Below are positions 15,153-46,320 of a DNA stretch of 64,000 nt, one piece after another. The stretch is from the NCBI RefSeq assembly GCF_021538615.1, contig NZ_JAJHIZ010000003.1, positions 3,658,001-3,722,000 of the forward strand, given 5' to 3'. The position numbers and the translations under genes were made by a program. The DNA is from Niabella agricola. Lineage in GTDB: Bacteria; Bacteroidota; Bacteroidia; Chitinophagales; Chitinophagaceae. How positions within the stretch are numbered: the first letter of the stretch is position 1; the number at the start of each line of letters is the position of its first letter. The notes beneath the pieces were generated by a model, which did not search any database, had not been told where the DNA came from, and was given only the letters and a program-made list of their open reading frames with translations.

Positions 15153-15160
15153 CAAAGTTA
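15153..15160 (-). promoter_or_regulatory. Predicted -7 box of the NIPSNAP gene
   Basis: The reverse strand reads TAACTTTG, an exact TAnnTTTG match, 19 bp before the ATG at 15133. Confidence 0.5.
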
Positions 15161-15206
15161 GTGGATGCGGCCGGTTTTCGCTTCTTTTCATCTGCAGCTG
15201 ATTGCG

Positions 15207-15214
15207 TACTTTTG
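15207..15214 (+). promoter_or_regulatory. Predicted -7 box of mnmE, implying a leaderless mRNA
   Basis: TACTTTTG matches TAnnTTTG and ends just four bases before the A of the mnmE ATG at 15219. With usual Bacteroidota spacing the transcript would start on or beside the start codon. Confidence 0.5.
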
Positions 15215-15218
15215 AAGA

Positions 15219-16613
15219 ATGAACGTGCTTTCTGGTTTTGATGATACAATTGCGGCAATTGCAACCCCTCCCGGGATCGGGGCCATCGGTGTTATACGGC
15301 TCAGTGGTAAAACAGCCTTTTTGGTGGCTGATGCCATCTTTAAGGGGAAAAAGCTGGCGGCACAGTCATCGCATACGGTGCATTTCGGGCATATCATTTC
15401 CCCGGAAGACCAGACAATCATTGATGAAGTGGTGGTAACCCTGTTTCGCGGACCCAAAAGCTATACAGGGGAAGACGTGATCGAGATCAGCGGACATGGT
15501 TCTCCGTATATTCTGCAAAAAATACTGGAGGCGGCCATCACCGCCGGAGCCAGGCTGGCAAAGGCCGGCGAATATACGCAGCGCGCCTTTCTAAATGGAA
15601 AGCTCGATCTGGCGCAGGCGGAAGCCGTAGCGGACCTGATTGCTGCGGATAGCCAGGCTCAACAACAGGCAGCATTACAACAATTGCGTGGCGGTTTTTC
15701 CGGCGACCTGGAGAAATTGCGCGAGCAATTGATCAACTTCGCGGCGCTTATTGAACTGGAACTGGACTTCAGCGATGAGGATGTAGAGTTTGCAGACCGG
15801 GCACAATTCGGGGCGTTAATCACAAATCTCAAATCTCAAGTCTCAAGCCTTTTACAATCCTTCCGTTTAGGTAATGTGATTAAAAATGGAGTAAGCGTAG
15901 CCATCATCGGTAAGCCCAATGCTGGTAAAAGCACCCTGCTCAATGCATTGCTGAATGAAGAACGCGCCATTGTCAGCGACATTGCAGGAACAACCAGAGA
16001 TGCAATTGAAGAAACCCTCAACATCAACGGGGTATTGTTCCGGCTGATCGATACGGCCGGTATCCGCGAGCATACAACCGACCAGATCGAGAGCATTGGT
16101 ATTGAGCGTAGCCGGAAAAACGCCGAAAAAGCCAACCTCATCCTGCACCTGGTGGATGTAACCGATCCGGATACTTCCGTGATCGAATGGCTGAAGCCCT
16201 TTGCCGGAAAAACAATTGACGTGTTGAATAAGACGGACCAGGCATCCGGCACCCAATCTCAAATCTCAAATCTCAAGCCTCAAATCTCAAGTCTCAAATC
16301 CCAAATCGCCATCAGTGCTAAAAAAAACACCGGCATCGAAGCGCTGAAGCAGTTGATGTATGAACGTGCCGTAGGCGAAACCATTCATACTGAAAATACC
16401 ATCGTAACCAATGCCCGGCATTTTGATGCCCTTTCCAAAATGATGGAAAGCCTGGAAGCCATCGAGTCCGGCATGCGTGCAGGGTTAACTGGCGACCTGC
16501 TTTCCATTGACATTCGTCGTACCTTACACTATCTTGGCGCGATCACGGGCCAGGTAGAAGTGGATCGCGATATCCTGGGAACGATATTCGGTAAGTTTTG
16601 CATTGGAAAGTAG
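15219..16613 (+). CDS. mnmE: tRNA uridine-5-carboxymethylaminomethyl modification GTPase MnmE
   Basis: 464 residues, full length. The N-terminal tetrahydrofolate-binding domain begins DTIAAIATPPGIGAIGVIRLSG. The G domain carries G1 GKPNAGKST (231-239), G3 DTAG (278-281), G4 NKTD (337-340) and G5 SAK (366-368). The C-terminus ends FGKFCIGK with the catalytic-site Cys. With MnmG it modifies U34 of several tRNAs. Two stretches (residues about 202-212 and 346-363) are encoded by CTCAAAT-type heptamer repeats. The last six codons, including the TAG stop, form the left copy of a 21-bp direct repeat that marks an integrated island. Confidence 0.97.
   Translation: MNVLSGFDDTIAAIATPPGIGAIGVIRLSGKTAFLVADAIFKGKKLAAQSSHTVHFGHIISPEDQTIIDEVVVTLFRGPKSYTGEDVIEISGHGSPYILQKILEAAITAGARLAKAGEYTQRAFLNGKLDLAQAEAVADLIAADSQAQQQAALQQLRGGFSGDLEKLREQLINFAALIELELDFSDEDVEFADRAQFGALITNLKSQVSSLLQSFRLGNVIKNGVSVAIIGKPNAGKSTLLNALLNEERAIVSDIAGTTRDAIEETLNINGVLFRLIDTAGIREHTTDQIESIGIERSRKNAEKANLILHLVDVTDPDTSVIEWLKPFAGKTIDVLNKTDQASGTQSQISNLKPQISSLKSQIAISAKKNTGIEALKQLMYERAVGETIHTENTIVTNARHFDALSKMMESLEAIESGMRAGLTGDLLSIDIRRTLHYLGAITGQVEVDRDILGTIFGKFCIGK
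15824..15847 (+). repeat. In-frame heptamer repeat, first mnmE copy
   Basis: Three 7-bp units (ATCTCAA, ATCTCAA, GTCTCAA) encode TNLKSQVSS at about residues 202-210, in the linker helix before the G domain. The seven-base period cycles all three frames, so the peptide repeats every seven residues and stays open. Confidence 0.75.
16254..16308 (+). repeat. In-frame heptamer repeat, second mnmE copy
   Basis: Seven units of the same 7-bp word with single-base drift (ATCTCAA, GCCTCAA, GTCTCAA, ATCCCAA) encode SQISNLKPQISSLKSQIA between the G4 NKTD and G5 SAK motifs. The host region is a variable surface loop in MnmE, which explains tolerance. Confidence 0.8.
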
Positions 16614-16616
16614 CGG
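16596..16616 (+). repeat. Left attachment site (attL) within the mnmE 3' end
   Basis: This 21-bp sequence encodes the last residues F-C-I-G-K and the TAG stop of mnmE. It is identical to 46108-46128. Because the repeat carries the whole end of the gene, integration leaves MnmE intact. Confidence 0.85.
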
Positions 16617-16730
16617 GGTTATTTCAGTTGACGCAGCTTTGCTTAAATTTTATAACTATTTAAAATGCAAGATGTTGCATAGTTGGATTTACTACATTTT
16701 ACCACTCTTTATGGATGTGTTGTACCTTTT

Positions 16731-16765
16731 CCCAAAAGTTCATTGAACAAAAAGGGTATTTTGGG
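16731..16765. promoter_or_regulatory. Nested inverted repeat upstream of the island HTH gene
   Basis: CCCAAAA (16731-16737) pairs with TTTTGGG (16759-16765). Inside it is the palindrome GTTCA-T-TGAAC (16738-16748). The position, 86 bp before the HTH start and about 115 bp inside the attachment site, suits an operator or recombinase/excisionase arm site. The rest of 16617-16850 shows no gene. Confidence 0.5.
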
Positions 16766-16850
16766 AAGGTTGGGTAGAGGATGGCAGCCATAGGCAATTC
16801 CAGTCATTCACTTAGCGATTTACCGTGGATTGCCTTAAAAACAAGGTAAA

Positions 16851-17255
16851 ATGAGTACGAACATCCGCGTTAAAAAGATCTGCCAGCAGTGCAAACAGCC
16901 GTTTATTGCACAAAAAACTGTCACGAAATTTTGCTCTCTTAAGTGCGCCAGCCGCAATTATAAAAAGCGCCAGAAAGAGCAAAAGGTTACAAAAACGATT
17001 CTCGCAACCAATCAACAGGCAATGGAGCAGTCGCAGGCTGCCGCGTCTGCCGTTCAGCAAACGCCTGCAAAGGGCCGATTGCACATGGAGTGGCTCAGCG
17101 TTCATGATGTGTCACAACTGCTCGGTATCGCCGAAAGAACGCTTTTCAGGCAGATCAAAGATCCCGCCTTTCCAAAACTCAAAATCGGTAGAAGGCTGCT
17201 GTTTAGCAAACAGCAGGTCCTGGATTATTTCATCAGTAAAAGTGAAGGGCTATGA
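16851..17255 (+). CDS. Zinc-ribbon plus HTH (excisionase-like) DNA-binding protein
   Basis: 134 residues. The N-terminal region (about 10-40) has CQQCKQPF and CSLKCASRNYKKRQ, a CxxC...CxxxC zinc-ribbon-like motif. A Gln/Ala-rich linker follows. The C-terminal helix-turn-helix (about 82-130) reads WLSVHDVSQLLGIAERTLFRQIK then IGRRLLFSKQQVLDYFIS, typical of excisionase/MerR-type proteins in Bacteroidota mobile elements. It overlaps the integrase fragment by 4 bp (ATGA), so the two were translationally coupled. It probably controlled or assisted integration and excision. Confidence 0.8.
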   Translation: MSTNIRVKKICQQCKQPFIAQKTVTKFCSLKCASRNYKKRQKEQKVTKTILATNQQAMEQSQAAASAVQQTPAKGRLHMEWLSVHDVSQLLGIAERTLFRQIKDPAFPKLKIGRRLLFSKQQVLDYFISKSEGL

Positions 17256-17542
17256 GGGGAACGTTAAGAAAAAAATTACTGAAATCCGGCAAATACAGTC
17301 TGTTTATTGACTATTTCCCACCGGTCTGGAACCCGGGAAAGCAAATTTACACACGGCGTGAGTTCCTGGGCCTGTATTTGTACAAAGATGCTGTTACATC
17401 TCTTGAAAAAAGGGAGAATAAGCTGTACTGTGTTGTAAGAAGGCTGACGATAAAAAACCAGGGCCTGCCAGTGGAAAGCCGTATTTATGTAAATACATCC
17501 TTCAAGCAAAATTATAAAAATAGAGGGAATCTAGGTAAATAA
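17252..17542 (+). pseudogene. Truncated tyrosine recombinase (integrase N-terminus)
   Basis: 96 residues. The first 50 (RGTLRKKLLKSGKYSLFIDY, then FPPVWNPGKQIYTRREFLGLYLY) match the arm-binding N-terminus of Bacteroidota phage-type integrases. From about residue 55 the sequence departs from the family, and the core-binding and catalytic (R-H-R-Y) domains are absent. Full-length relatives are about 400 residues. The next gene starts only 90 bp downstream, so roughly 300 codons are missing, most simply by a deletion joining the integrase to the PUL. The short C-terminal tail after the break has no recognisable origin. Confidence 0.75.
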
Positions 17543-17631
17543 ACATAGGAGATACTTCAACTTTTAATGGTGATGTTCACCCGATCTGTTTCTTCTATCT
17601 GTCTCTGTTACAGAAAAATTACTTTGTCGTA

Positions 17632-19551
17632 ATGAATTCAAATTTTCATCATTCCCTGACACGTCGCCGGTTTATTAGAAACGGAACACTGGCCGGCGCC
17701 TGCCTGATGATGCCTGCCGGATGGACTGCTGCTGCTAATGACACGCTGGGTCTGATTGAAAAAGAAGCCACCGCATTACTGGAAGTCTGGGGCAGTACAC
17801 TTCTACGATACCAGGTAAACCGGCCGGGGGATCCGGGATTGCACGGAGGATTGCTTTGTCCTGCTTGCGGAACGATTCACGGGCGAAGCGGGGATGCAAT
17901 TTTCCCTCTACTGCTGCTAGCAAAAAAAACAAAAGATAAGCGATACAGCGAAGCCGCCTACCAGCTTTATGACTGGATGGAAGCGGCGGTCAGTACTCCG
18001 GACGGCGCCTGGCTGAATGAAGTGAATGTGTCGGACTGGAAAGGTACTACCGTATTTGCGGCTATTGCGTTGGCAGAAACCATCAGGCATTGTTCTGATA
18101 TTATTGACCCCGTACGTTTAGCTTCCTGGAAAAAGCGGCTGGAAAAGGCAGGCAGTTATTTATATGATCAGTTCAATATTCTCACCGGTAATATCAATTA
18201 CCCGGTGAGTTGTTGTTATGCGTTGCAATTGATTGGATCACTTTTGAATGAAAACCGGTTTCAGCAAAAAGCAGCCGCCCTTATAAAAGAATGTAAAAGA
18301 TATTTTACACCCAATGACCAACTGCTTTTTGGAGAAGGAAGACCGGTACCTGAGGTTTCGCCGAAAGGCTGCTATTCCATTGATCTGGGTTATAACGTGG
18401 AAGAGTCGCTGCCGGCGCTTGTATTGTATGCAAAGATGACTGAAGATAGCGAACTGGCGAAACAGCTTGCCCGGTCCCTGGAGCAACACCTGGAGTTTAT
18501 GCTGCCCGATGGCGGTTGGGACAACAGCTGGGGAACCCGTAATTTCAAATGGACCTACTGGGGCAGCCGGACCAGCGACGGTTGTGCACCTACCTATCTG
18601 TTTATGGCTGATGAAAATCCTTCTTTTCTTACAGCCTGCCTTCAGAACCTGAAGCTGATGAAAAGCTGTACCCATAGTGGATTACTTTATGGTGGGCCGC
18701 ATAACTATACGCATCATATATTGCCCTGTATTCACCATACTTTTACCCATAGCAAGTCACTGGCTACCCTTCTGGCAAAGCCACAGTTATGGCCCGTGAA
18801 ACGTTCCGGGACGCCGCTGGCGCGGCAAAAGCCCTACGGGATTAGGTATTTTAAAGATGTTGATACATGTTTGGTCTCTTTTGACCAATGGGTGGCAACA
18901 CTCACGGCCTATGATCAGGAATATAATTTTACGGGAGGACATGCCACCGGTGGTGCACTCACTATGTTATGGCACCCGCTGTCTGGTCCGCTGCTCACTG
19001 CCAGTATGGGCCGGTATCAGATGGTGGAAGCCTTCAATATGCAAAGGGATGACGATCCGGATTCCATTTGCCTGACGCCACGGTTTGAGGTTTCCTCTAA
19101 TGGAAAGACCTATTCCAATATTTATGATAAAACAGCAACGATCACTGCTGACTCAAACGCGAAGTATTGCCGGTTAAAGTCTGAGTCCGGTTTAACCGAT
19201 GAGCTTCAGCAACCGCTGGTTGCAGCTTCGAAATCTCCGGTGGTTATTGAACACACATTCCGTAACAGCCAGGTTTTTATTGATGCAGCCTGCACACCGG
19301 CTGGTAACGACCATTCGCCCGTCTTTTTCCTGCCGCTTATCTGCCTGCCGGAAGACCAAGTGCGCTTTACTAGTGACAGCAAGGTGGAAATCCAAAAGAA
19401 GACCTGTATTATAAAGCTGGAGACTGATCAACTTTTTGAAAAAACAGATCCAACGGAAAGGCGGTTTAACCATGTCCCCGGCCTGATGGCGTTACCGCTA
19501 CGCATTCACGCAAGAACGATTCATTTATCCCTGTCGATTCAAAAGTCATGA
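17632..19551 (+). CDS. Tat-exported alpha/alpha-barrel protein, putative glycan-active enzyme
   Basis: 639 residues. The N-terminus TRRRFIRNGTLAGACLMMP is a twin-arginine signal. The middle (about residues 40-420) looks like a helical (alpha/alpha) toroid with aromatic and His patches such as DGGWDNSWGTRNFKWTYWG and CTHSGLLYGGPHNYTHH. The C-terminal 200 residues look beta-rich. This architecture is seen in polysaccharide lyases and six-hairpin glycosidases, but I cannot place it in a named family. It is the first gene of the PUL and overlaps the next by 4 bp. Confidence 0.65.
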   Translation: MNSNFHHSLTRRRFIRNGTLAGACLMMPAGWTAAANDTLGLIEKEATALLEVWGSTLLRYQVNRPGDPGLHGGLLCPACGTIHGRSGDAIFPLLLLAKKTKDKRYSEAAYQLYDWMEAAVSTPDGAWLNEVNVSDWKGTTVFAAIALAETIRHCSDIIDPVRLASWKKRLEKAGSYLYDQFNILTGNINYPVSCCYALQLIGSLLNENRFQQKAAALIKECKRYFTPNDQLLFGEGRPVPEVSPKGCYSIDLGYNVEESLPALVLYAKMTEDSELAKQLARSLEQHLEFMLPDGGWDNSWGTRNFKWTYWGSRTSDGCAPTYLFMADENPSFLTACLQNLKLMKSCTHSGLLYGGPHNYTHHILPCIHHTFTHSKSLATLLAKPQLWPVKRSGTPLARQKPYGIRYFKDVDTCLVSFDQWVATLTAYDQEYNFTGGHATGGALTMLWHPLSGPLLTASMGRYQMVEAFNMQRDDDPDSICLTPRFEVSSNGKTYSNIYDKTATITADSNAKYCRLKSESGLTDELQQPLVAASKSPVVIEHTFRNSQVFIDAACTPAGNDHSPVFFLPLICLPEDQVRFTSDSKVEIQKKTCIIKLETDQLFEKTDPTERRFNHVPGLMALPLRIHARTIHLSLSIQKS

Positions 19552-20963
19552 AATGTTTTTTAAATAGAAACCCTTTTGCTTATGTATTGCTACTAGGCCT
19601 GTTATCTTTGTCTAGCTATGCAGTCGCTCAGCAATTGTCCGAGACTAGCGACCGGTGGACGTTTGCGAACTTCGGATCCTTTTCAGAAGGAAAGATGAGC
19701 TGGACGAGAGACACAGCTACATTGCAAACCCGGAACACCCGGCATTGTTACTTTGAATCAGATAAATTCAGCTACTGCTGGCAGCCACAGGAATTTCCCT
19801 ATGATGAATGCTCTCGTTCCTCTGTTGAAGTGACAATTACAACGCTTAATATGGGCACGGCGGGGATTATGATGCGGGCAGACACTTCAGCAGGAGCCGC
19901 TAATGTACACTTGGAGGTAAACACATCCGGAGAGGTGCTGTTATTCAGCCGGGCGGAAAAAGATCAGTCAACTTCTTATAAACGTTTGGGCAAACAATCG
20001 TTGCCGGTCACACTTCGGTTAACCCGTAATGGAAATGCATTCACGGGTGCATTCAAGAGTGCTGATGGCAAGAGGCAATGGCTGGATTCGGGCACCGTCT
20101 TTTCCAGGATCGGTGCTCACCAGCTAATTGGTTTTTATGGCTGCTCCGGCAGTGAGTCGGAAAGGCCTTCAGACGCGGCTGTCGGTCCATTGATGAGCGC
20201 CAGGTTCACAGACTGGCAGTCGGACTATACAGAAAATTTTATTTCCCCGGAACAGCATTTTAAGTATCCGGATGCGATCAGCAAGGAAATATTAGCCAGT
20301 GAAAATTTTGATGACGGCAGCCTTAGTAATCCTCCGGAACGACCTTTTAACCCGTTATGGAAAGGAATTGAATATGCCTATCTGCCCTATGACACAGCAG
20401 GAGGCAGATATTGGGCAAAAAGCGGGAGCGGCTTTTATACAATAGGCGACGATCAATGGGGTGACTATGAACTATCGCTGGCCTTTGCGGCACAGGAGAA
20501 GCATCAAAACTTCGGAAATCTTGAATTCAGGCTGCGCTACTGTACTTCGGTGTTATACCCGCAGATGGACCAGTATTTTTCGGTTGTCATAAAAGAGGGT
20601 AATCGTTTTTCTTTTGAAAAACATCGTGCCGGGAATATACAGCTAGTAAAATCTCTTCAGGTGGATGAACTGAATGACGGCCGCTTTCATCATCTGAAAG
20701 TGCAATTGCTGGACCAGAGCTACCAGGTCTTTATCGATGGCAGGTTACTGGCAGCAGGAAAAGATACCTTGCAGCCGATCACCATGGGAAAGGTCGCTTT
20801 TCAATTTCAAAACGCCGCTGTAAAACTTGATGATGTTATCGTGCGGTCGATACCAGATCCTGTTAACGGAGTGATGGACAATTTATTACAAAATTATTTT
20901 TCCAGACCTATACCGGAATATTTAAAAAAATATGGAATATCGCATTTACCTTCCCTGCGCTAA
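19548..20963 (+). CDS. Secreted protein with two LamG/DUF1080-like domains
   Basis: 471 residues with a signal peptide (FAYVLLLGLLSLSSYAVAQ). It appears to have two concanavalin-like jelly-roll halves: about residues 30-225 (DRWTFANFGSFSEGKMSW, then GIMMRADTSAG) and about 245-435 (SENFDDGSL, then GDYELSLAFAAQEKHQNFGNLEFRLRY and HHLKVQLLDQSYQVFIDGRLL). The second half resembles the 3-keto-disaccharide hydrolase/DUF1080 fold, which also serves as a plain carbohydrate-binding module. The start overlaps the previous gene (ATGA) and the end overlaps the next by 32 bp. Binding versus catalysis cannot be decided. Confidence 0.65.
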   Translation: MKCFLNRNPFAYVLLLGLLSLSSYAVAQQLSETSDRWTFANFGSFSEGKMSWTRDTATLQTRNTRHCYFESDKFSYCWQPQEFPYDECSRSSVEVTITTLNMGTAGIMMRADTSAGAANVHLEVNTSGEVLLFSRAEKDQSTSYKRLGKQSLPVTLRLTRNGNAFTGAFKSADGKRQWLDSGTVFSRIGAHQLIGFYGCSGSESERPSDAAVGPLMSARFTDWQSDYTENFISPEQHFKYPDAISKEILASENFDDGSLSNPPERPFNPLWKGIEYAYLPYDTAGGRYWAKSGSGFYTIGDDQWGDYELSLAFAAQEKHQNFGNLEFRLRYCTSVLYPQMDQYFSVVIKEGNRFSFEKHRAGNIQLVKSLQVDELNDGRFHHLKVQLLDQSYQVFIDGRLLAAGKDTLQPITMGKVAFQFQNAAVKLDDVIVRSIPDPVNGVMDNLLQNYFSRPIPEYLKKYGISHLPSLR

Positions 20964-23301
20964 AAAGAGATCCCTTCGAATAGTATTGACAGCGTTTTTT
21001 ATTTTAAGTCTTTTACAATTGCGGGCACAAACTTCCATAGGGAGCCTTCATGTATTCCATATTACCAATGCATACGCGCGACCCGGGGAGACAATATTAA
21101 TTGTTGGTGCGGGGTTCGACAAATTGCTCAAGGCCAGCCTGGCCAGGATCCCTGAACAGCAACCTGATTTTTCCAATCCTCGGTTTGTGTACGCACCACA
21201 GCCGGACAGGTCAAATCAACAGGAAGATCGCGTAATTACAGAGTACCCGTCGCTGCAATTTTATCCTGCAACCATGTGGCAGGCAAATAATCAGTCGGTC
21301 AAAATTGTGGTTCCACAACGATTAAAGGCAGGGATATATTTATTGCGGCTCACGGACCAGGACGGTAAAAACTCTTTTTATTTGCTGAACCAGCCCCGGG
21401 TCCAGTGGATCATGACCAGAGAAGGCGCGTCTGTGGTCGCTGGAAGTATATTGAGATTACAGGGAAGAAACCTTGCCTGTAACCCGAAGAATGGCCGGGT
21501 TCTTTTAAAAAATAAGCAGCAGACCATTATGATTCCCGTGGATTCGGTCTATGATGCTTATTCGATCAGGTGTAGAGTGCCGGACGCGGTACCGCCCGGT
21601 CAGTATGAGTTGTATTATCATAATGGCAATGGAAATAATCTTGCCTGGAGCAAACCGCTTGTAGTACATGTAGAGAAAAGATCGGAACCCCGCTGGTTGC
21701 AGCATAGAATAAATGTAAAGGATTTCGGGGCTGTTGGAGACGGGCTACATGATGAAACGGCTGCCTTCCGGGATGCGCTGGACGCGATTGGGAAAAAAGG
21801 CGGCGGAACGCTCTTTGTACCGGATGGGCGCTATCAACTCACCGGGGAGTTGATCCTGGATCCCAATACCCTGATCGAAGGTGCATCTGCGGCCCGGACG
21901 CAGCTTTTCTGGAACCCGCTTAACTGGCCGGTCAACCAGATGCCCGTAAGCCTGATCAGCGGCACTCATGATTTTGGATTGAAAGATTTGAATATATGGG
22001 CGACGCGCGCCTGGGGCGTTATCTTGTCAACCGGGCCGGTGGAGGAACAGGGTAATATCCTGCTGGAAAATCTTATTGTGCGTCAATCCGGTGCCGTAAG
22101 CGGTGGTATGTATATGGTAAAGGCCAACCGGGACCAGATGGAAAAGGAATTCAACAGCCGCTGGAACCGGACCGGGCTGGTATTGCACGGACATCTGCAG
22201 ATCCGCAACTGCGACTTTAATATCGCAGGTATGTACACTTTTTCCGATGCATCGGGATGGATCCGGAACAGTAAATTTACCCGCTTTGGAACCGGGATCA
22301 ATCAGCCTTATATGGCGATCCATCCCAAAGGCTTGATCTTCGAAGATTGTTTTAAAACGGCTGATGGCTATGGTTATGCAGCTACAATAGATGAGAGTAC
22401 CAACCTGTACGAGGCAAGAAATCACATACCCTACGATTATACCAACGACCGGGAATGTATGACACTCGACGGCGGCGGTGGCGCCTATACCGGAACCATT
22501 GCGGGCATCCGGTCACGGACCTGCTGGCTGCCACCGGAAGCAAAGACTACCAACTGGACACCGGATAAATGGAAAGGCGGCGGTGTCTTTATTCTTTCCG
22601 GTAAGGGTGCAGGTCAGTTTCGCAGAATTGCCGGTCATGGTAAGGATACGATCCTGCTGGATACTCCTTTCGAGATCAACCCGGACAGCAGTTCCATTAT
22701 CAGCATCACTACGGTGAGGACCAATTTATATTTTATCAATAACCGGGTAGAGGATGCCGGCGCATACCAGTTTTACGGGTCGGCTCAGGATTGTGTCATT
22801 GATGGCCTGGAAATGAAACGGAGCGGTGGTATCGTCAGCAGGGGGTCCTCCCTGTATGGAGGGCGGCAGCCAAACTGGTATATTGAAGTACTAAATTGCC
22901 GGCTAACAGAAGGAAATTATAGCCATTGGTATGGTATTGATGACCGTGGGCACTCCGGGTACCAGAAGATTGAGGTCATCGGTACGGGAGGCCCGGGAAT
23001 GAACAGGGGAACACTCGTCCGCGGTAATCAACTGGACGACTTTTCCTACATTACTACTGCCCCTGGCCGTGACCCGGAATCGATTGTAGACCTGGTCATC
23101 GAAGGTAATCACTTTAAAAAAGCGAAGATGGCCATTGAGATGGGGGGCGACGGCATCAGTACAAAGCATGCTTTGATCCACAACAACATTTATAAGTCCG
23201 TTGAAAAGCGACTACATACTCATTCAAATACGCTTTTAAAATCGGTGCTGGTAACAGAAACTGCGGAACCCGGCAAGAAAAACGAAAATACTTCACCCTG
23301 A
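20932..23301 (+). CDS. Secreted pectate-lyase-superfamily beta-helix enzyme with IPT-like N-terminal domains
   Basis: 789 residues. Signal peptide about residues 13-33 (SLRIVLTAFFILSLLQLRAQ). Two immunoglobulin-like IPT/TIG-type domains follow (about 35-250; ARPGETILIVGAGF and VVAGSILRLQGRNL). The remainder is a right-handed parallel beta-helix starting at INVKDFGAVGDGLHDETAAFRDAL, the Pfam pectate lyase superfamily signature shared by lyases, GH28/GH55 relatives and tailspikes. No single catalytic residue can be named by eye. It probably cleaves the target polysaccharide at the cell surface or in the periplasm. Confidence 0.8.
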   Translation: MEYRIYLPCAKKRSLRIVLTAFFILSLLQLRAQTSIGSLHVFHITNAYARPGETILIVGAGFDKLLKASLARIPEQQPDFSNPRFVYAPQPDRSNQQEDRVITEYPSLQFYPATMWQANNQSVKIVVPQRLKAGIYLLRLTDQDGKNSFYLLNQPRVQWIMTREGASVVAGSILRLQGRNLACNPKNGRVLLKNKQQTIMIPVDSVYDAYSIRCRVPDAVPPGQYELYYHNGNGNNLAWSKPLVVHVEKRSEPRWLQHRINVKDFGAVGDGLHDETAAFRDALDAIGKKGGGTLFVPDGRYQLTGELILDPNTLIEGASAARTQLFWNPLNWPVNQMPVSLISGTHDFGLKDLNIWATRAWGVILSTGPVEEQGNILLENLIVRQSGAVSGGMYMVKANRDQMEKEFNSRWNRTGLVLHGHLQIRNCDFNIAGMYTFSDASGWIRNSKFTRFGTGINQPYMAIHPKGLIFEDCFKTADGYGYAATIDESTNLYEARNHIPYDYTNDRECMTLDGGGGAYTGTIAGIRSRTCWLPPEAKTTNWTPDKWKGGGVFILSGKGAGQFRRIAGHGKDTILLDTPFEINPDSSSIISITTVRTNLYFINNRVEDAGAYQFYGSAQDCVIDGLEMKRSGGIVSRGSSLYGGRQPNWYIEVLNCRLTEGNYSHWYGIDDRGHSGYQKIEVIGTGGPGMNRGTLVRGNQLDDFSYITTAPGRDPESIVDLVIEGNHFKKAKMAIEMGGDGISTKHALIHNNIYKSVEKRLHTHSNTLLKSVLVTETAEPGKKNENTSP

Positions 23302-23342
23302 TACTGCCTAAAAACTGTCTAATAATAAAATAAACAACATTT

Positions 23343-26960: not shown

Positions 26961-26981
26961 GATCCATAATACTGCATTCAT

Positions 26982-28862: not shown

Positions 28863-28889
28863 ATTGATAATTATAACAACTGAATAACT

Positions 28890-29918: not shown

Positions 29919-29928
29919 CTTCTTTCAA

Positions 29929-31881: not shown

Positions 31882-31896
31882 TAAAGTCCTTTTACA

Positions 31897-34131: not shown

Positions 34132-34264
34132 AGTAATATTTCGCGAACTCGATAAACGAACAATTGAATGTTACTAATAGCGACCAGCCGGTACCGGAAA
34201 AAGCTTTCCGGGAAATAGGAAGATTAGTTCACCCATCCAAAGGTGTTTTGCTGTCTGTAAAATA
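34132..34264 (+). other. Spacer with a possible gene-end remnant
   Basis: The longest gap within the first part of the PUL operon. An open frame without a start codon runs about 40 codons to a TAA just before the next ATG (contains EQLNVTNSDQPVPEKAFREI and LVHPSKGVLLSVK). It reads like the C-terminus of a lost gene, but I cannot identify it and it may be chance. Confidence 0.3.
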
Positions 34265-35680: not shown

Positions 35681-35692
35681 GAATATACGGTT

Positions 35693-36943: not shown

Positions 36944-36947
36944 ATGT

Positions 36948-38948: not shown

Positions 38949-39061
38949 AGAAGATGGTAAATGAAAAATCAAATATCTTTGATCAATCAATAGCTTGCAG
39001 AAAGGGTTCCTGGCAGGGTGACGATTGTAAGATATACGGGAGTATAAATATATATTCTGAG

Positions 39062-39604
39062 ATGCAACATCAAGATGATACTTTTTGGGAAGAGGCGTTG
39101 GCCCAGGGTAACAGGGAGGCATATGCTGTCTTGTTTAAAAAGTATTACAGGATGCTGGTGCTTGAGGCATTTTATTATCTGAAAGACGAGATGGAAGCTG
39201 AAGACCTGGTACAGTCGATCTTCATTGAGATCTGGAACAAACAACTCTACCGGAACATAAAAGTGTCGTTAAAGTCCTATCTGCATACTTCTGTGCGCAA
39301 CCGGTCATTCGGTTTGCTGGAAAAGAAAAAGACAGCCAAAAAAAGACTGGATGCCTATACATACCACCTGGAGCAGGTAACTAGTGACGACCGGATCGGA
39401 AGAAAGGAGTCTGAAAAAATCGTCCGGGAAACCCTGGAAGAACTTTCCCTGCAAAGATCAAAAGCATTTACGCTGGTTTACCTGGAAGATAAGCGATACA
39501 GCGAAGCTGCGCTGGAAATGGGCATCAGTGTCAACTCCTTAAAAACACATCTGAAGCTAGCCGTTAAGTCTCTTCAGCAAAAATTTAGTAAGGCCCGCAA
39601 ATGA
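39062..39604 (+). CDS. ECF-type RNA polymerase sigma-70 factor
   Basis: 180 residues from ATG 39062; the in-frame upstream extension lacks homology. Region 2 reads YAVLFKKYYRMLVLEAFYYLKDEMEAEDLVQSIFIEIWNK; region 4 is an HTH (EDKRYSEAALEMGISVNSLKTHLKLAVKSLQQKF). With the FecR protein encoded 94 bp downstream and the STN-bearing SusC it forms a cell-surface signalling switch that should activate the PUL when the glycan is imported. Confidence 0.93.
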   Translation: MQHQDDTFWEEALAQGNREAYAVLFKKYYRMLVLEAFYYLKDEMEAEDLVQSIFIEIWNKQLYRNIKVSLKSYLHTSVRNRSFGLLEKKKTAKKRLDAYTYHLEQVTSDDRIGRKESEKIVRETLEELSLQRSKAFTLVYLEDKRYSEAALEMGISVNSLKTHLKLAVKSLQQKFSKARK

Positions 39605-39698
39605 AGGATGTATTCTTAAAAGCATATTCCCTGCAAGGGAAGGAAACTATTGCCGCGGAATCACCCTTTTTTATAAAAAAACTGTCTTATAAACAGGT

Positions 39699-40820
39699 AT
39701 GGATAAACGTGAGGAACATATTCAATCTTTGATCTTCGAAAAGCTGGCAGGTGTCATTAGCGAGCAGGATAATGTGTTCCTTGATGAATTATTGCGGACA
39801 GATCCGCAGGTGCAGCAGATGTGGACAGATATTGTTCAAACCACAGCACCTGCAAAGTTGCGGGAAATAAGCACGGAGGAGCGCTGGAAGCAGCTTCGTG
39901 GTCGGCTGAAAAATAATAAACGGAATACAGCCATTGTCTATTTGAAATGGATGAGTGCAGCCGCAGCAATTTTGATTGCAGGATGGTTTGTATTTCATAA
40001 TAGCCCCGGCAAGCCAAAAGGACCGGCGGCGGTGGCAGGCGTAGATGTTCCAAAAAATAAAGTGCAGCTTACTTTAGCAGATGGAAGTGTGATCAGCCTG
40101 GATTCGGCGAACAGTTATTACCAGGCCAGTAATCTTTCCCTGAATACGGAAGGTAATAAAGTCAGTCTTGATCCGTCAGATTCCTCCCTGGTGCGATGGG
40201 CAACGCTCAAAGTGCCCGTGGGGAAAGACTACAAGGTTGTTTTGGATGATGGTACGGAAGTTTGGCTGAACGCGGTTTCCAGCTTAAAATTTCCTTACCG
40301 GTTCTCAGGCAACATCCGGGAGGTTTACCTGGAAGGTGAAGCGTATTTCAGCGTCACTAAAAACCCTGACCGGCCTTTTATTGTACATAACGGACAGACG
40401 GCGGTCAGGGTATTGGGAACCCGCTTTAACGTAGAGGCCTACGTTCCTGAAAAGATCACAACAGCGCTGGTGGAAGGAGCTGTTTTAATGGAATATGGGG
40501 GCTCGTCCGTTAAATTGAGCCCGGGGTATAAGGTGTCATTGCAACAAGGGCAATTAGTAAAATCGACTTTTGATGCAAACGAAATGCTCGCATGGATGCA
40601 CGGGGTCGCCTATTTCAGGGAGAGCCGCCTTGAGGACATTGCTGCACTATTAAGCCGTTTTTACGAGGTGCAGATCGTTTTTGATAATCCTTCATTAAAG
40701 AACGAGCGATTCAGCGGTGCGGTCAATAAATCGGAACCGCTGGCTGTTTTTTTGAAAAATATCGAAATAGCTTCCGGCGTACAAGCCAGGGAGATCAACG
40801 GGCAACTGCATCTCCGCTAA
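39699..40820 (+). CDS. FecR-family anti-sigma factor
   Basis: 373 residues. A cytoplasmic sigma-binding segment (1-78) precedes one membrane helix (about 80-100, AAAAILIAGWFVFH). The FecR periplasmic domain (about 150-245) carries VPVGKDYKVVLDDGTEVWLNAVSSLKFPYRF and EVYLEGEAYFSVTKNPDRPFIVHNG. A C-terminal STN-like segment (ESRLEDIAALLSRFYEVQIVFDN) follows. It receives the signal from the SusC STN domain and controls the adjacent sigma factor. Confidence 0.93.
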   Translation: MDKREEHIQSLIFEKLAGVISEQDNVFLDELLRTDPQVQQMWTDIVQTTAPAKLREISTEERWKQLRGRLKNNKRNTAIVYLKWMSAAAAILIAGWFVFHNSPGKPKGPAAVAGVDVPKNKVQLTLADGSVISLDSANSYYQASNLSLNTEGNKVSLDPSDSSLVRWATLKVPVGKDYKVVLDDGTEVWLNAVSSLKFPYRFSGNIREVYLEGEAYFSVTKNPDRPFIVHNGQTAVRVLGTRFNVEAYVPEKITTALVEGAVLMEYGGSSVKLSPGYKVSLQQGQLVKSTFDANEMLAWMHGVAYFRESRLEDIAALLSRFYEVQIVFDNPSLKNERFSGAVNKSEPLAVFLKNIEIASGVQAREINGQLHLR

Positions 40821-40867
40821 TGGAAGCGCCATTTTGGAATCATCATCATTTTCTAAAACCACTTGTA

Positions 40868-42385
40868 ATGAAGAGAATCGTTTCATTTGGGGGTGGCATG
40901 CTATGCACGCTGTTATCGTTTTTATGCAGGGCTGCCATTCATCCGAACAGCCTGTTTGCCGACCACATGGTATTACAACAGCAGGTACCGGTGCCGCTGT
41001 GGGGAACGGGTACCGACGGACAAAAGGTAACCGTCTCTTTTAACGGGCAGCAGCAGGTTACTATTGTACAGAACGGGTGCTGGAGGGTAACCCTGAGTCC
41101 GCTGACTGCGGGCGGTCCTTTTACAATGACGATCAGTGCCGATACGGTCATTACCATCGGGGATGTACTGGTAGGAGAAGTATGGATCTGTTCCGGGCAA
41201 TCCAACATGGACCGGAGGCTCAAACCAATGCCTCCCCAAAAGCCTATTGTTCGCTGGGAGGAGGAAGTGCAGGCGGCACGATATCCTGAGATCCGTCAAT
41301 TCTTTGTACCGCATTCTGCTGTAACGGAGGAGCCCAAAGAGGATTGTAATGGAAAGTGGACGGTCTGCTCTCCTCAATCGGTAATGGAATATTCGGCGAT
41401 CGGTTATTTCTTTGCCCGGGATCTTTATAAGACAATTAAGGTTCCCTTAGGATTTATTTATACGGCCTGGGGCGGAACGCCTGCTGAAAGATGGGTGAGC
41501 CGGGAGGTGTTAAAATCAGATACGGCGCTTTCCGGGCTGGTAACGGCCTATTACGAAGCGATGAAACGATATCCCGGGCAACTGGAAGCCTATAAGGCAA
41601 AGGAGCCTGACCTGCTCCAACAATGGAGCAGAGATTCTTTAAAGGCTGTAACGAAAGGCGCTCCTTTACCGCCCAAACCGCGTCCCCCGTTTAATCTTCA
41701 AAAAGAAGGCGACTGCGGCGGTCTGTATAATATTATGGTGGCTCCTTTAACTCCTTACGCAATAAAAGGGGTTTGTTGGTACCAGGGGGAATCGAATAGT
41801 GCCAGGGCCTGGCAATACCCGGCTTTGTTAACTGCATTGATCAATAGCTGGCGGCAAAAATGGAACGAGGGGAATTTCCCGTTCCTGATTGTTCAGATCG
41901 CTCCTTATAAAGATATGAGTCCGGAAATCAGGGAGGCGCAGCTGCAGGTTTCTCAAAAACTGCCGAACACAGCCTTAATTGTTACGACGGATTGTGGAGA
42001 TAGCGCAGACATTCATCCGACATTTAAGCAACCCGTAGGAGCCCGGCTGGCGCTGGCAGCGCGGGCCGTTGCCTATCACGAACCGATCACTTATTCAGGG
42101 CCGGTCTATAAGCGTTTTAAGATCATGGGGGATAAAATAATACTTTACTTTGAACATGCCCGGCAACTGGAGAGCAAAGGAGGTCCTTTGAAAGGATTTA
42201 CGATTGCAGGCCCGGATCATCAGTTTGTAACTGCCAAGGCAATTATCAAGGGCAGTTCCGTTGAGGTGACCAGCAGTGAGGTGCCGCATCCCGTGGCCGC
42301 ACGTTATGGCTGGTCCAATGTTCCCGATGTTAATTTATACAATGAGGCCGGTCTTCCTGCTTCACCGTTTCGTACCGGTCAATAA
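40868..42385 (+). CDS. Sialate O-acetylesterase-family (SASA) enzyme
   Basis: 505 residues from ATG 40868, which gives a signal peptide (MKRIVSFGGGMLCTLLSFLCRA). Family motifs: NSLFADHMVLQQQVPVPLWG, VWICSGQSNMDR (catalytic Ser), IYTAWGGTPAERW, CWYQGESNSARAWQYP and the C-terminal TTDCGDSADIHPTFKQPVGARLALAA (Asp/His). In environmental Bacteroidota such enzymes remove acetyl groups from plant glycans as well as sialic acids. No sialidase is present here, so plant-glycan deacetylation is more likely. Confidence 0.88.
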   Translation: MKRIVSFGGGMLCTLLSFLCRAAIHPNSLFADHMVLQQQVPVPLWGTGTDGQKVTVSFNGQQQVTIVQNGCWRVTLSPLTAGGPFTMTISADTVITIGDVLVGEVWICSGQSNMDRRLKPMPPQKPIVRWEEEVQAARYPEIRQFFVPHSAVTEEPKEDCNGKWTVCSPQSVMEYSAIGYFFARDLYKTIKVPLGFIYTAWGGTPAERWVSREVLKSDTALSGLVTAYYEAMKRYPGQLEAYKAKEPDLLQQWSRDSLKAVTKGAPLPPKPRPPFNLQKEGDCGGLYNIMVAPLTPYAIKGVCWYQGESNSARAWQYPALLTALINSWRQKWNEGNFPFLIVQIAPYKDMSPEIREAQLQVSQKLPNTALIVTTDCGDSADIHPTFKQPVGARLALAARAVAYHEPITYSGPVYKRFKIMGDKIILYFEHARQLESKGGPLKGFTIAGPDHQFVTAKAIIKGSSVEVTSSEVPHPVAARYGWSNVPDVNLYNEAGLPASPFRTGQ

Positions 42386-42396
42386 CCCGGGTTACT

Positions 42397-42891
42397 ATGA
42401 ATAGAAAAGAAGCGATAAAAGGATTATTTTTTTCAGCAACCCTGCTTTATTTGCCGGGGTGTTTACCTGCAGATACCAAAGAAAAGGAGCTTTTCAGCCG
42501 GCAGGAATCCGGCCTGCTGCTGCAGGTTATCGAAACCATTCTTCCGGTTCGGCCCGCTTCCGTTAAAGAGCTGTCTGTTTTTATAGAGAAAACAGTGAGC
42601 GATTGCTACAGCCCGGAACAACAAAACAATTTTAAAAAAGGGCTCGCAGCTTTCCGGGATTATGTTAAATCTGCTTCTGGAAATATATTTGAGCGGCTTC
42701 CCCATCCGGAAAAATTAAAGGTACTGACAGCTGCTGCCGGCAGCAATGTACAAAGTGTAAACAAAACGCTTGCAACCATAAAAACGCTCGCAATTGAGGG
42801 GTATAGAACCAGTAAATATTTTATGACCAGCGTGATGCCTTATGAATTAGTGCCGGGGCATTTTTATGGTTGTGTGGCCAGTCACAACTGA
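42397..42891 (+). CDS. Gluconate 2-dehydrogenase subunit 3-family lipoprotein
   Basis: 164 residues. The N-terminus MNRKEAIKGLFFSATLLYLPGC has a lipobox Cys at residue 22 and a weak twin-arginine-like RK motif. The body (about 30-160) matches the small gluconate-dehydrogenase subunit (LLLQVIETILPV, then AFRDYVKSASG and a C-terminal YEGYRTSKYF-like region). Such subunits escort a GMC flavoprotein across the membrane; the GMC gene starts 6 bp downstream, so they form one complex. Confidence 0.85.
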   Translation: MNRKEAIKGLFFSATLLYLPGCLPADTKEKELFSRQESGLLLQVIETILPVRPASVKELSVFIEKTVSDCYSPEQQNNFKKGLAAFRDYVKSASGNIFERLPHPEKLKVLTAAAGSNVQSVNKTLATIKTLAIEGYRTSKYFMTSVMPYELVPGHFYGCVASHN

Positions 42892-42897
42892 TTTGCA

Positions 42898-44586
42898 ATG
42901 AAAGAAAATTATCAATATGATGCGATTGTCATCGGTTCAGGTATCAGCGGCGGCTGGGCGGCCAAAGAGCTTTCTGAAAAAGGGCTCAAAACGCTGGTGC
43001 TGGAGCGCGGTAGGGATGTGCAGCACGTCAGGGATTATCCTACCACAAACCTCGAACCCTGGGAGTTGGAACACCGAGGAGCATTGACTTATGAGGAACT
43101 TAAAGAAAATCCTGTTGTAAGCAAATGTTATGCTTTTAAGGAGGATGCCAAACATTTCTTTGCCGGCGACAAGGAGCATCCCTATCACCAGGAGCAACCC
43201 TTCGACTGGATCCGCGGGTATCAGCTCGGTGGCAAATCACTGATCTGGGCCCGCCAGACCCAACGCTGGAGTAACTTTGATTTCGAAGGCCCGCTACGCG
43301 ACCGGTTTGCGGTGGACTGGCCCATCCGATATGAAGACCTGGCGCCCTGGTACAGCTACGTGGAAAAATTTGCCGGTATTTCCGGAAACAGAGATGGCCT
43401 CGCAACACTACCGGATGGTGATTTCTTGCCACCGATGGAAATGAGTTGCGTGGAAAAGCATTTTCAAAAGGTAGTATCAAAAAAATATAAAGACCGGCAT
43501 GTGATCATCGGACGCTGTGCGCATATTACGGAAGCGCAGCCGGTGCATCTTCAGCAGGGAAGAGTGAATTGTCAGTACCGGAATCTGTGCCGGAGGGGAT
43601 GCCTTTTCGGCGGTTATTTCAGCAGCAATGCGGCTACGCTTCCGTGGGCATTAAAAACCGGCAATCTTTCCATCAGGACCCAAAGTATTGTGGAGTCGAT
43701 TCTTTATGATACTAAAACTGGCAGGTCCACCGGCGTCCGGGTGATTGATGCGGTCACTAATGCCGCAACAGAGTATTTTGCACGAATTATCTTTGTCAAT
43801 GCTAGTACACTGGCTACCAATCAGATTTTACTGAACTCAAAGAGCAGCCGTTTTCCGCAGGGATTGGGTAATGATAACGGGCTTTTAGGAAAGTATCTAG
43901 CGTTTCACAATTACCGGGGCAAAGCCGAAGCTACTTACAACGGGTTACTTCAATATACCACCAACGGCAGGCGACCAAATGGCGCTTACATCCCAAGATT
44001 CCGGAACGTACACCGGCAGGAAACCGGTTTTCTGAGAGGGTACGCGGTAGCATTAGGAGGCTGGCGGCCGCTTGTTGAGCCGCAGGGGTGGGGCGGAGAG
44101 CTCCGGCAGACATTAGAGCATCCCAAAGAAGCTGTCTGGAAAATAAGCGCGGGTATGATGGGCGAAACCATTCCTAAAGAAAGTAATTATGTAAGCCTGC
44201 ATGCTGATGAGAAAGATCAATGGGGTATCCCGTTATTAAAGATCCATGTACAGTACGACGATAACGATGAAAAAATGCTTAGGGATTATTTTGAGCAAAT
44301 GAAGGAAATGTTTGACGAGGCGGGATTCTCGGATATCACAGTAACCGACACCCGGCAGGCACCTGGGTTGGACATTCACGAAATGGGAGGAGTGCGTATG
44401 GGTAATGATCCTGCTACCTCTTTGTTGAACCGGTATAACCAGCTGCATACCTGCAAGAATGTTTTTGTAACCGACGGCGCCTGTATGACCTCCACCGGTA
44501 CACAAAACCCATCATTAACTTATATGGCGCTTACAGCGCGGGCCTGTGATTATGTGATACGCGCTATGAAAAATGGAAGCCTATGA
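42898..44586 (+). CDS. GMC-family FAD oxidoreductase (sugar dehydrogenase large subunit)
   Basis: 562 residues. Dinucleotide-binding motif YDAIVIGSGISGGWAAKELSEKG at the N-terminus and the GMC_oxred_C block DIHEMGGVRMGNDPATSLLNRYNQLH, then VFVTDGACMTSTGTQNPSLTYMALTARA. A Cys cluster (CQYRNLCRRGCLFGG, about 221-235) also occurs in glucoside-3-dehydrogenase-type members. No signal peptide, in line with co-export with the subunit-3 lipoprotein. It likely oxidises a sugar hydroxyl, with electrons passed to an unknown acceptor. The stop overlaps the GH2 start by 4 bp. Confidence 0.88.
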   Translation: MKENYQYDAIVIGSGISGGWAAKELSEKGLKTLVLERGRDVQHVRDYPTTNLEPWELEHRGALTYEELKENPVVSKCYAFKEDAKHFFAGDKEHPYHQEQPFDWIRGYQLGGKSLIWARQTQRWSNFDFEGPLRDRFAVDWPIRYEDLAPWYSYVEKFAGISGNRDGLATLPDGDFLPPMEMSCVEKHFQKVVSKKYKDRHVIIGRCAHITEAQPVHLQQGRVNCQYRNLCRRGCLFGGYFSSNAATLPWALKTGNLSIRTQSIVESILYDTKTGRSTGVRVIDAVTNAATEYFARIIFVNASTLATNQILLNSKSSRFPQGLGNDNGLLGKYLAFHNYRGKAEATYNGLLQYTTNGRRPNGAYIPRFRNVHRQETGFLRGYAVALGGWRPLVEPQGWGGELRQTLEHPKEAVWKISAGMMGETIPKESNYVSLHADEKDQWGIPLLKIHVQYDDNDEKMLRDYFEQMKEMFDEAGFSDITVTDTRQAPGLDIHEMGGVRMGNDPATSLLNRYNQLHTCKNVFVTDGACMTSTGTQNPSLTYMALTARACDYVIRAMKNGSL

Positions 44587-45420
44587 TCAGCAAAAGTTCC
44601 TGCTTATTGATTTTGCTCACCCTAATGCGGTTGTTTACGGCAGCGCAACCGGATCAATTGCAGGTTGGAAAACATCTATTCGATGATCAATGGCACTTTA
44701 TATCGGACGATATTCCGCATGCCGGAAACCGGGGCTTTGCAGATGATCAATGGCGCGTGTTGGATCTTCCACATGACTGGAGCATCGAAGCAGTGCCGGA
44801 ACACTCCCTGCCGGGCGGCGGCGCCGATGGTTTCTTTCCTGCTGGTGTCGGCTGGTACCGGAAACATTTTATGGTTCCCGCTTCCATTAAAGCTAAAAGC
44901 GCTTTAATCTATTTTGAGGGAGTATATATGAATGCGGAAGTATTTATCAACGGGCATTCATTGGGATGAAGCTTTTAATGGCTGGAGGGAGCCAAAGAAT
45001 CCCTATGGGTGTGGATATTATTTTGACTCTTGCTGGAAAAGGGATCTGCAATCGATGATCTTGCGAGATTGTGATCACCTTTCTGTTCTTATCTGGAGCA
45101 TCGGCAATGAAATTTATGAAAGAAAAAAACCGGAAGCGGTGCAAATTGCCGCAGCCATGGTTAAGGCAATACACGTTATCGACAGCACCCGGCCTGTTAC
45201 TTCTGCCGTAACAACCTGGGACAAAGACTGGGAAATTTTTGATCCGCTTTTTGCGGTTCACGACATTGCAGGATATAATTACCAGGGCGAACCTGCCAGC
45301 GGGCATGGCAAAGCCGAGCTGTTCCCCTGGCATGGAGCGTACTGTGGTGACATCGATCTCACAGGCTGGCGGAATCCAATATCGTATTGCCGAAACCTGC
45401 TTTGGAATAATACCATTCTA
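44583..45420 (+). pseudogene. Deleted GH2 beta-galactosidase remnant
   Basis: The N-terminal part (44583-44957) encodes a signal peptide and the GH2 jelly-roll (DDQWRVLDLPHDWSIE, then GVGWYRKHFMVPASIK). It ends at VFINGHSLG and is followed at once, in another frame, by catalytic-barrel sequence DEAFNGWREPKNPY and LIWSIGNEIYERK (acid/base Glu). After AGYNYQ the sequence jumps to GEPASG and FPWHGAYCGDIDLTGWRNPISY, so the nucleophile region is missing too. The match stops at about LLWNN (45410), where an opposite-strand HTH gene begins. At least two internal deletions and a lost C-terminus make it non-functional. It was the last gene of the operon (4-bp overlap with GMC). Confidence 0.85.
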
Positions 45421-45604
45421 TCTCATTTTCAGCAACATAAACCTTTCTTCCTTTTTTCAAGGTCATGATTTTACTTTTGTTTACTAATTTATCAAAGTTA
45501 GACCGGCAAATTCTTCCTTCCACCATAAAATCCTTTACAGTAATGTAAGATGATGCTGTCTGTTTGCTTTTCGCTTCTGAAGACTTGAGTTCTAGAAGTA
45601 ACAA
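45359..45604 (-). CDS. Excisionase-like HTH protein, 3' end altered
   Basis: 81 residues from TTG 45604 (no ATG in frame upstream; the open frame extends further back). The HTH reads SYITVKDFMVEGRICRSNFDKLVNKSKIMTLKKGRKVYVAENEIEWYYSK, typical of small excisionase/MerR-like proteins of Bacteroidota elements. The last 15 residues (after YYSK) are antisense translation of the GH2 remnant, so the original end was replaced by the deletion junction. A perfect palindrome lies 32 bp upstream. It probably belonged to the element's integration or control module. Confidence 0.6.
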   Translation of the reverse strand: MLLLELKSSEAKSKQTASSYITVKDFMVEGRICRSNFDKLVNKSKIMTLKKGRKVYVAENEIEWYYSKAGFGNTILDSASL

Positions 45605-45635
45605 ACTTTCATCCAGAGCATTTTGACACTGGTCT

Positions 45636-45654
45636 ATTGTTCCAATGGAACAAT
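45636..45654. promoter_or_regulatory. 19-bp perfect palindrome, probable operator
   Basis: ATTGTTCCA (45636-45644) and TGGAACAAT (45646-45654) are exact inverse complements around one A. It lies just upstream of the HTH gene on the minus strand, which suggests autoregulation or an excisionase site. Confidence 0.55.
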
Positions 45655-46107
45655 GATCGTTGCCTGCACGTTTTTTTCCATAAACAATATCATTTCAAAT
45701 TTTAAAAGATGCTGGCCCGAAGAGGAACTTTTATTCCGATTTGCCTGTTGGTGAAAGCGTTGGCTATTCATATACTAGTAAGGCAAACCACTTGCAATTA
45801 CCGAGGTATTCTCGGCAGTTCCATTTTTCATTTAGGAATGGTAAAAGGTTTCAATTAATTCTTTATTAACGCATCATTCTATTAATGATTTCTTTAAAAA
45901 ATATAGAAATGTGGAACCGATTTTTTCTTGAATAGAATGCCTGTTTTTTTTATCTTGCAGGTTATGCCTGAAGGGGGTAATTATAGTAAGTTCTTGTAAA
46001 ATGGAGTAACGTCATCTTGCTTTTCTTTCCTATTTCTCTCTAAAGAAAAGTACGCTTCCTTTTTGTACCTCGTCTTTTCAAACCCACTGCTAATGGGGGT
46101 TTGTACT
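45655..46107. other. Gene-poor right end of the island
   Basis: About 450 bp before the right attachment site. A start-less open frame at 45684-45869 (contains RNFYSDLPVGESVGYSYTSK and a basic, aromatic end) could be a gene remnant. Toward the attachment site GTAC words flanked by A/T runs recur (AAAAGTAC, TTTTTGTAC, GTACTTTTT), and CAAACCC...GGGTTTG (46079-46103) forms a hairpin. These may be integrase arm sites. Confidence 0.4.
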
Positions 46108-46128
46108 TTTTGCATTGGAAAGTAGCGG
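46108..46128 (+). repeat. Right attachment site (attR)
   Basis: Identical over 21 bp to 16596-16616 at the end of mnmE. It marks the island boundary; katG follows 264 bp downstream on the chromosome side. Confidence 0.85.
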
Positions 46129-46320
46129 CAAGGGCTATACCAGTAGTGTTGCCTGGTTAATCAAGTGCTGTTTTGCCTTTATAATAATAGAACAACAATA
46201 TGGTTGCCGGAATCTTAAGGCTGCATTGTTTTTTCTCAATTTTCTCCAGTCTGTTATTCTCTATAAGTTTCATCTATGGATCTATAAATTTAATCAATTA
46301 TATTTATAATATTAAAGTCA

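Follow-up and report, generated by a model that had tools for sequence, protein, structure and literature searches.

A polysaccharide utilization locus at the mnmE 3' end of Niabella agricola as the probable remnant of an integrative and conjugative element

In Niabella agricola, 29.5 kb of DNA separate mnmE (trmE/thdF) from katG and hold a polysaccharide utilization locus (PUL) enclosed by two copies of a short repeat. This locus raises the question of whether its glycan-degradation genes were brought to the mnmE 3' end by an integrating element and, if so, what became of the carrier. The window is the whole 64,000-nucleotide stretch analysed (assembly GCF_021538615.1, contig NZ_JAJHIZ010000003.1, positions 3,658,001 to 3,722,000), and positions are counted from its first letter. 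The 29.5 kb between mnmE and katG are most likely a cis-mobilizable element (CIME), the remnant, still bounded by attachment (att) sites, of an integrative and conjugative element (ICE) that carried the PUL. The definition of a CIME is that given in the excerpted text of PMC5704250.

The island is bounded by TTTTGCATTGGAAAGTAGCGG, an exact direct repeat of 21 bp that is unique to these two sites in the 6,259,918-base genome when up to three mismatches are allowed. The last mnmE codons, FCIGK followed by a stop, fall within the left copy. The island is thus inserted at the trmE/mnmE 3' end, as in the SGI1 family, and retains both attL and attR, as a CIME does. The initial annotation, made from the sequence alone, had described a perfect repeat at the end of mnmE and 29.5 kb downstream, and it is exact at both positions. 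Repeat length alone is not diagnostic, because the PUL holds two further exact direct repeats of 22 bp (17933/39486) and 21 bp (31886/41115); position and comparative evidence, not length, decide the att nature of the boundary repeat. Within the open mnmE frame, AATCTCAA-type repeats form two clusters at 15818-15846 and 16255-16311.

Niabella aurantiaca DSM 17617 (G010) carries a 76-kb element directly after mnmE. Its left end is 81% identical to that of the window over 851 columns, which comprise the non-coding end, a helix-turn-helix (HTH) gene, and about 59 integrase codons. The N. aurantiaca integrase is intact, a full 377-aa tyrosine recombinase that continues past 17428, where the nucleotide alignment to the window gene stops at about codon 59. 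A second copy of the mnmE end lies 76 kb on, preceded by a stretch that is 77% identical to 45916-46123 of the window, and followed by another left-end fragment and then katG. The fragment behind the second copy represents a tandem remnant. The genes enclosed by the two copies include relaxase, NikA/MobC-like, coupling protein, TraG, TraJ, TraM, and DUF4138 families, the last of which is presumably TraN-type; matches to the NCBIfam MobB and MobC models stay below cutoff. The cargo comprises two PUL-type clusters and includes two SusD proteins, glycoside hydrolases (GH) of families GH115, GH88, and GH28, polysaccharide lyases, SASA and sigma/FecR proteins, and sensor and regulator domains. The Tra and mobilization families, the SusD/GH block, and the homologous ends therefore mark an ICE-like element with PUL cargo at the same site. 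The homology of both ends points to descent of the window island from an ICE or an integrative and mobilizable element.

The window island retains little of such machinery. As the initial annotation had recognized, an HTH gene (PF12728) and an integrase stump (PF17293) lie just inside the left repeat copy; the stump alone remains of the integration and transfer genes, whose loss is characteristic of a CIME. Among the annotated open reading frames (ORFs) of the window, Pfam reveals no conjugation or mobilization families (SGI1 proteins were not among the queries), and neither Pfam nor tblastn with 12 proteins of the N. aurantiaca element finds a relaxase or Tra gene there. The island therefore does not have the intact integrase, relaxase, and type IV secretion system of an autonomous ICE. 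It should not mobilize itself at present, because its integrase is cut and no other intact integrase of the same family was found in its own genome. An HTH gene placed inside the right repeat copy by the initial annotation was rejected, as Pfam gives no family at E 0.01 for its sole candidate, the minus-strand ORF 45359-45694; this ORF weakly matches one ORF of the fetched loci (E 0.0016).

The right end of the island is AT-rich, and TTGTACCT-like motifs recur close to both ends in the window and in N. aurantiaca. Of 16 left ends scanned, 10 have a GTACAA motif at a distance of 161-165 bases from where the core starts; the right ends of two related elements, in G242 and G342, are without it. 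Since the sequences are related by descent and these two right ends lack the motif, the TTGTACCT sites are kept as no more than candidate integrase arm sites.

The 16 genomes of the window's genus group serve as the congener set. The closest by MnmE, G009 (93%) and G005 (92%), have mnmE followed by katG with PUL-free intervals of about 1.5 kb and 1.7 kb, respectively. Except for the mnmE end and the last 170-190 bp before katG, these intervals are unlike each other and unlike the window. A probe of 46090-46420 matches in 9 of the 16 congeners, and none of the matches extends left of 46252. The initial annotation had expected relatives to show one repeat copy running directly into the sequence at 46129, and this did not hold: both intervals are unmatched, and homology begins at about 46252. 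It had also regarded PUL-free relatives that do not match 46129 onward as speaking against an island. G005 and G009 touch this point in part, and their unmatched intervals may reflect turnover at a busy insertion site.

The PUL itself looks foreign to the genus Niabella when its sequence is compared, because its SusD is 64% identical to a protein of another genus and at best 40% to the congener proteins found. In the genus search (E 1e-50), which scored between 41 and 74 first-look candidates in each genome, 6 of the 16 congeners have any SusD match. In the family search, which covered 394 genomes including the window's own and scored three first-look candidates in most genomes shown, 7 of the 394 match at E 1e-120 or better. 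Outside the window, the best match is that of G115, which belongs to another genus (g100); 11 of the PUL proteins recur there at 40-65% identity in a partly different order. Homologous ends in N. aurantiaca, PUL-free closest congeners, and a foreign-looking PUL together support well the central claim of the initial annotation, that an integrase delivered a PUL to the mnmE 3' end.

Second mnmE-end motifs occur in other genomes as well. A degenerate pattern for the MnmE C-terminus, scanned in the 394 family genomes, is present in 368, and in at least 40 of the 394 (N. aurantiaca and the window included) mnmE is followed downstream by a second copy of the motif. A further 94 genomes with at least two same-strand matches, chosen by eye, were rescanned, and a reversed-motif control gave 15 matches in those 94. 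Same-strand pairs with a spacing of up to about 38 kb were fetched in 39 cases, which are not all such pairs; 38 of the 39 have the mnmE end as their first copy, the exception being G395. At loci where both copies were available, they agree at 14 to 18 of the 18 core bases. Motif arrays also occur, with four copies in G181 and six in G404. The six copies of G404 (locus L071) span about 18 kb (1103-19185 in mnmE orientation) with the first at the mnmE end, and no integrase of the mnmE family was detected at this locus. In G034 (locus L042), the last 74 MnmE residues are duplicated about 8.7 kb behind mnmE (9990-10211 in mnmE orientation), which is a longer displaced gene end.

An intact same-strand integrase of one family lies downstream of mnmE in 18 of the 39 fetched pairs, and the other 21 are without one. 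Integrases adjacent to mnmE in other Bacteroidota, which the initial annotation had proposed looking for, were found in two collections. A position-blind integrase search matched 46 of 294 genomes at E 1e-30; 30 loci were fetched out of 50 matches, and mnmE is directly upstream in 23 of these 30 (the query's own locus included). Among the other seven, L166 has an mnmE-end motif near a contig edge, L191 starts at a contig edge, and the integrases of L184, L187, and L189 lie by coordinates behind or between mnmE-end motif copies; no association with mnmE or its end motif was seen for L176 and L180. In a GTDB-based collection, mnmE is directly upstream at 26 of 34 integrase loci (N. aurantiaca itself included), the misses being L104 (contig edge, motif present), L113, and six short-match loci (L121-L126). 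Identities are 55-80% under Chitinophagaceae-type names and 31-36% under Flavobacteriaceae and other Bacteroidota names.

The N. aurantiaca integrase is 73% identical to those of G242 and G342, which belong to different genera (G242 to the same genus group, g100, as G115), and 34% identical to the mnmE integrase of the congener G006. Close integrases across genera together with a divergent one in a congener fit horizontal movement. On these sequence comparisons, Bacteroidota have a docking site at the mnmE 3' end, where this integrase family is widespread.

The cargo at this site varies. The element of G242 contains relaxase, NikA, and primase-type domains, together with restriction families of type I and a weakly matching SIR2 domain, and that of G342 (Niastella sp. 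OAS944) contains a relaxase and a HEPN-domain protein. In G255, from another genus, a SusC/SusD PUL with two GH16 enzymes fills the space from mnmE to the second copy (locus L065, 1573-18332). The second motif copy of G255 has 16 of the 18 core bases, and no integrase of the mnmE family was detected; it is a second case of the same shape as the window island. The initial annotation had called a PUL bounded by att sites in a housekeeping gene unusual. Integration at mnmE turns out not to be confined to one genome, as the integrase family extends across Bacteroidota. A broader proposal, for and against which the case seems evenly balanced, is that a Bacteroidota-wide family of mnmE-docking elements exists, with its own putative integrase clade and independent of SGI1. 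Its ICEs, mobilizable elements, and CIMEs would swap cargo, such as entire glycan-digestion loci in Niabella and genes for type I restriction, HEPN, or SIR2 proteins in Niastella and a further genus of the family, and would stack in tandem, and a decayed att-bounded PUL could be re-acquired by the next element.

Several observations weigh against reading the window island as a CIME. SusC and SusD occur together between the motif copies in only 3 of 41 elements (the window, N. aurantiaca, and G255), so that PUL cargo is a minority; the 41 are the 39 fetched pairs, N. aurantiaca, and the window, and 24 of the 39 were read to the second copy and the others for about 20 kb. Second motif copies are often imperfect, unlike the exact pair of the window, and four opposite-strand pairs within 100 kb were seen by eye (G299, G124, G339, G409). 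It is the two ends that support an ICE origin, as tblastn with the 12 N. aurantiaca proteins found no trace of transfer genes, and the traG frame of the N. aurantiaca element is interrupted in the draft, which leaves the functionality of that element unproven. No compositional signal marks the PUL (GC 0.483, versus 0.465 and 0.474 in the flanks). An exact empty site was seen neither among the 16 congeners nor in the G005 and G009 intervals; 46129-46251 is private to the window genome among the congeners compared. Flank-like GC, the missing empty site, and the two other exact repeats of 21-22 bp would suit an ordinary chromosomal PUL beside which the boundary repeat arose by chance. Such a coincidence is nonetheless extremely improbable: FCIGK-stop is encoded by the second copy as well, mnmE is followed by a further mnmE-end motif in at least 40 of the 394 family genomes, and the match of both island ends to the ends of an ICE-like element largely refutes chance. 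It is likewise hardly credible that an SGI1-family trmE island was transferred into Bacteroidota, although the excerpts of PMC9035990 give the same gene end as its target. Apart from the HTH gene and the integrase stump, the annotated island genes are of PUL type or have no assigned function, and the N. aurantiaca relative matches Bacteroidota MobB and MobC models, albeit below cutoff and with SGI1 proteins not compared. The longer integrase matches (L093-L120, at least 31% identity) all bear Bacteroidota names, and the other six matches cover short fragments, of which three come from other phyla.

The PUL might instead never have been carried by the integrating element. In that case, an mnmE element would have integrated and decayed first, and the PUL would have landed later between its ends by homologous or illegitimate recombination. 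The inner junctions, at 17428 in the integrase gene and near 45416 in a GH2 gene, do resemble illegitimate joins, and the 60 kb read around the nearest relative PUL, that of G115, contain no match to MnmE or to the window-family integrase, which also counts against cargo status. Even so, this sequence of events is unlikely. A single deletion on each side accounts for both junctions, the element of the congener N. aurantiaca carries PUL-type clusters as cargo at the same site, and the PUL of G255 fills the space between mnmE and the second motif in another genus.

With a CIME as the preferred explanation, the history of the locus may be outlined as follows. An ICE carrying the PUL would have integrated by recombination of its attP with the last mnmE codons through its own tyrosine integrase, keeping the MnmE C-terminus intact. 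Later deletions would have removed most of int, all of the transfer genes, and most of the GH2 gene, leaving the PUL stranded. The predicted role of the PUL is the uptake and breakdown of a pectin-like glycan bearing arabinose and fucose, controlled by a sigma/anti-sigma pair. Renewed movement would be expected solely upon the arrival of an integrase, or of a tandem ICE, with the same specificity.

From 17632 to 45468, all genes of the predicted PUL lie on the plus strand, in agreement with the one-directional PUL of the initial annotation, and adjacent SusC and SusD genes are accompanied by carbohydrate-active enzymes, as is characteristic of a PUL (Table 1). P1, whose start resembles a twin-arginine signal, is possibly a new carbohydrate-active family. 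The second pectate-lyase-like protein has merely a 135-residue fragment match in the related G115 PUL. The broken GH2 gene is a sign of decay where the cargo ends on the right. The internal 22-bp repeat (17933-17954 and 39486-39507) is coding in both places, in P1 and in the sigma-factor gene, and the internal 21-bp repeat (31886-31906 and 41115-41135) joins the start of the second pectate-lyase-like gene with the interior of the SASA esterase gene.

Table 1. Features of mnmE and the adjoining island, in window positions.
Feature	Position	Strand	Evidence
mnmE (trmE/thdF), target gene	15219..16613	+	Pfam MnmE_helical, TrmE_N
Left repeat copy (attL-like)	16596..16616	+	Exact 21-bp repeat
Left element end, non-coding	16617..16850	+	81% to N. 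aurantiaca left end (851-column alignment including next gene)
Candidate integrase arm site TTGTACCT in left end	16720-16727		Motif position; putative
HTH/excisionase-like DNA-binding protein	16851..17255	+	PF12728; TIGR01764 below cutoff; 87% identical to N. aurantiaca
Truncated tyrosine integrase, 96-aa ORF	17252..17542	+	PF17293 (arm-binding domain)
P1, PUL protein, 639 aa	17632..19551	+	No Pfam, NCBIfam, or PDB match
P2, PUL protein	19548..20963	+	No Pfam or NCBIfam match; 40% to protein in related G115 PUL
Pectate-lyase-like protein	20932..23301	+	PF12708; 51% to G115 PUL
SusC-like TonB-dependent transporter	23343..26960	+	Plug, CarbopepD_reg_2, STN; 65% to G115
SusD-like glycan-binding lipoprotein	26982..28862	+	PF07980, PF14322; 64% to G115, best congener match 40%
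DUF5017 protein	28890..29918	+	PF16409
GH127 beta-L-arabinofuranosidase-like	29929..31881	+	PF07944, PF20736; PDB 5mqo, 4qjy
Second pectate-lyase-like protein	31897..34131	+	PF12708; N-terminus like particle-associated glycoside hydrolase (PDB 6c72)
GH29 alpha-L-fucosidase	34265..35680	+	PF01120
GDSL esterase	35693..36943	+	PF13472
FAD-dependent oxidoreductase with golvesin domain, start uncertain	36726..38948	+	PF12831, PF25275
ECF-type sigma factor	38954..39604	+	PF04542, PF08281
FecR-type anti-sigma factor	39699..40820	+	PF04773, PF16344
SASA carbohydrate esterase	40820..42385	+	PF03629
Gluconate 2-dehydrogenase subunit 3-like	42397..42891	+	PF13618
GMC oxidoreductase	42898..44586	+	PF05199, PF00732
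GH2 gene, broken: two short ORFs (N-terminal domain, part of TIM barrel)	44583..45468	+	PF02837, PF02836 partial
Right element end	45916..46107	+	77% to N. aurantiaca right end, 210 columns, running into repeat
Candidate arm sites, right end	46063-46070, 46101-46108		TTGTACCT-like motif; putative
Right repeat copy (attR-like)	46108..46128	+	Again encodes FCIGK-stop

The locus illustrates how entire operons for glycan digestion probably reach environmental Bacteroidota: the physical route has defined ends, one conserved landing site, and, in a relative, an intact integrase. Reading downstream of mnmE in any genome could reveal such cargo. The same gene end would also have become a dock in two phyla.

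Like a CIME, the window island keeps attL and attR and has lost its integration and transfer genes, and tandem neighbours occur at the same site in its relatives. Known CIMEs are mainly streptococcal, whereas the window case lies in Bacteroidota at an mnmE site and carries a PUL; its mobilization in cis is putative. In gammaproteobacteria, the trmE/mnmE 3' end is a hot spot of SGI1-related islands, including tandem arrays, according to the excerpts of PMC9035990 and PMC2297512. The window island shares with them the same end of the same gene, and tandem arrays occur in both groups. As far as those excerpts go, the SGI1-related islands differ in phylum and cargo, and the N. aurantiaca relative has Bacteroidota-type Mob and Tra proteins. 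PULs as the cargo of integrative elements are also described in gut Bacteroidetes, where 47 PULs with SusC and SusD lie on mobile elements (PMC6907783) and a porphyran PUL lies on another (PMC5849685). Unlike these, as the two sources present them in excerpt, the window island has an mnmE target, a Niabella host, and a decayed carrier. ICECleSHZ29, a Bacteroidota ICE at a tRNA gene (PMC12561888), likewise has short exact direct repeats at a gene 3' end but, in the excerpted account, differs by its tRNA target and resistance cargo. Among the literature matches listed, none indicates by its title or the start of its abstract an mnmE-targeting element or element family of Bacteroidota. Elements of this kind are known already; what appears new in the window island is the way in which site, phylum, integrase family, and cargo are combined.

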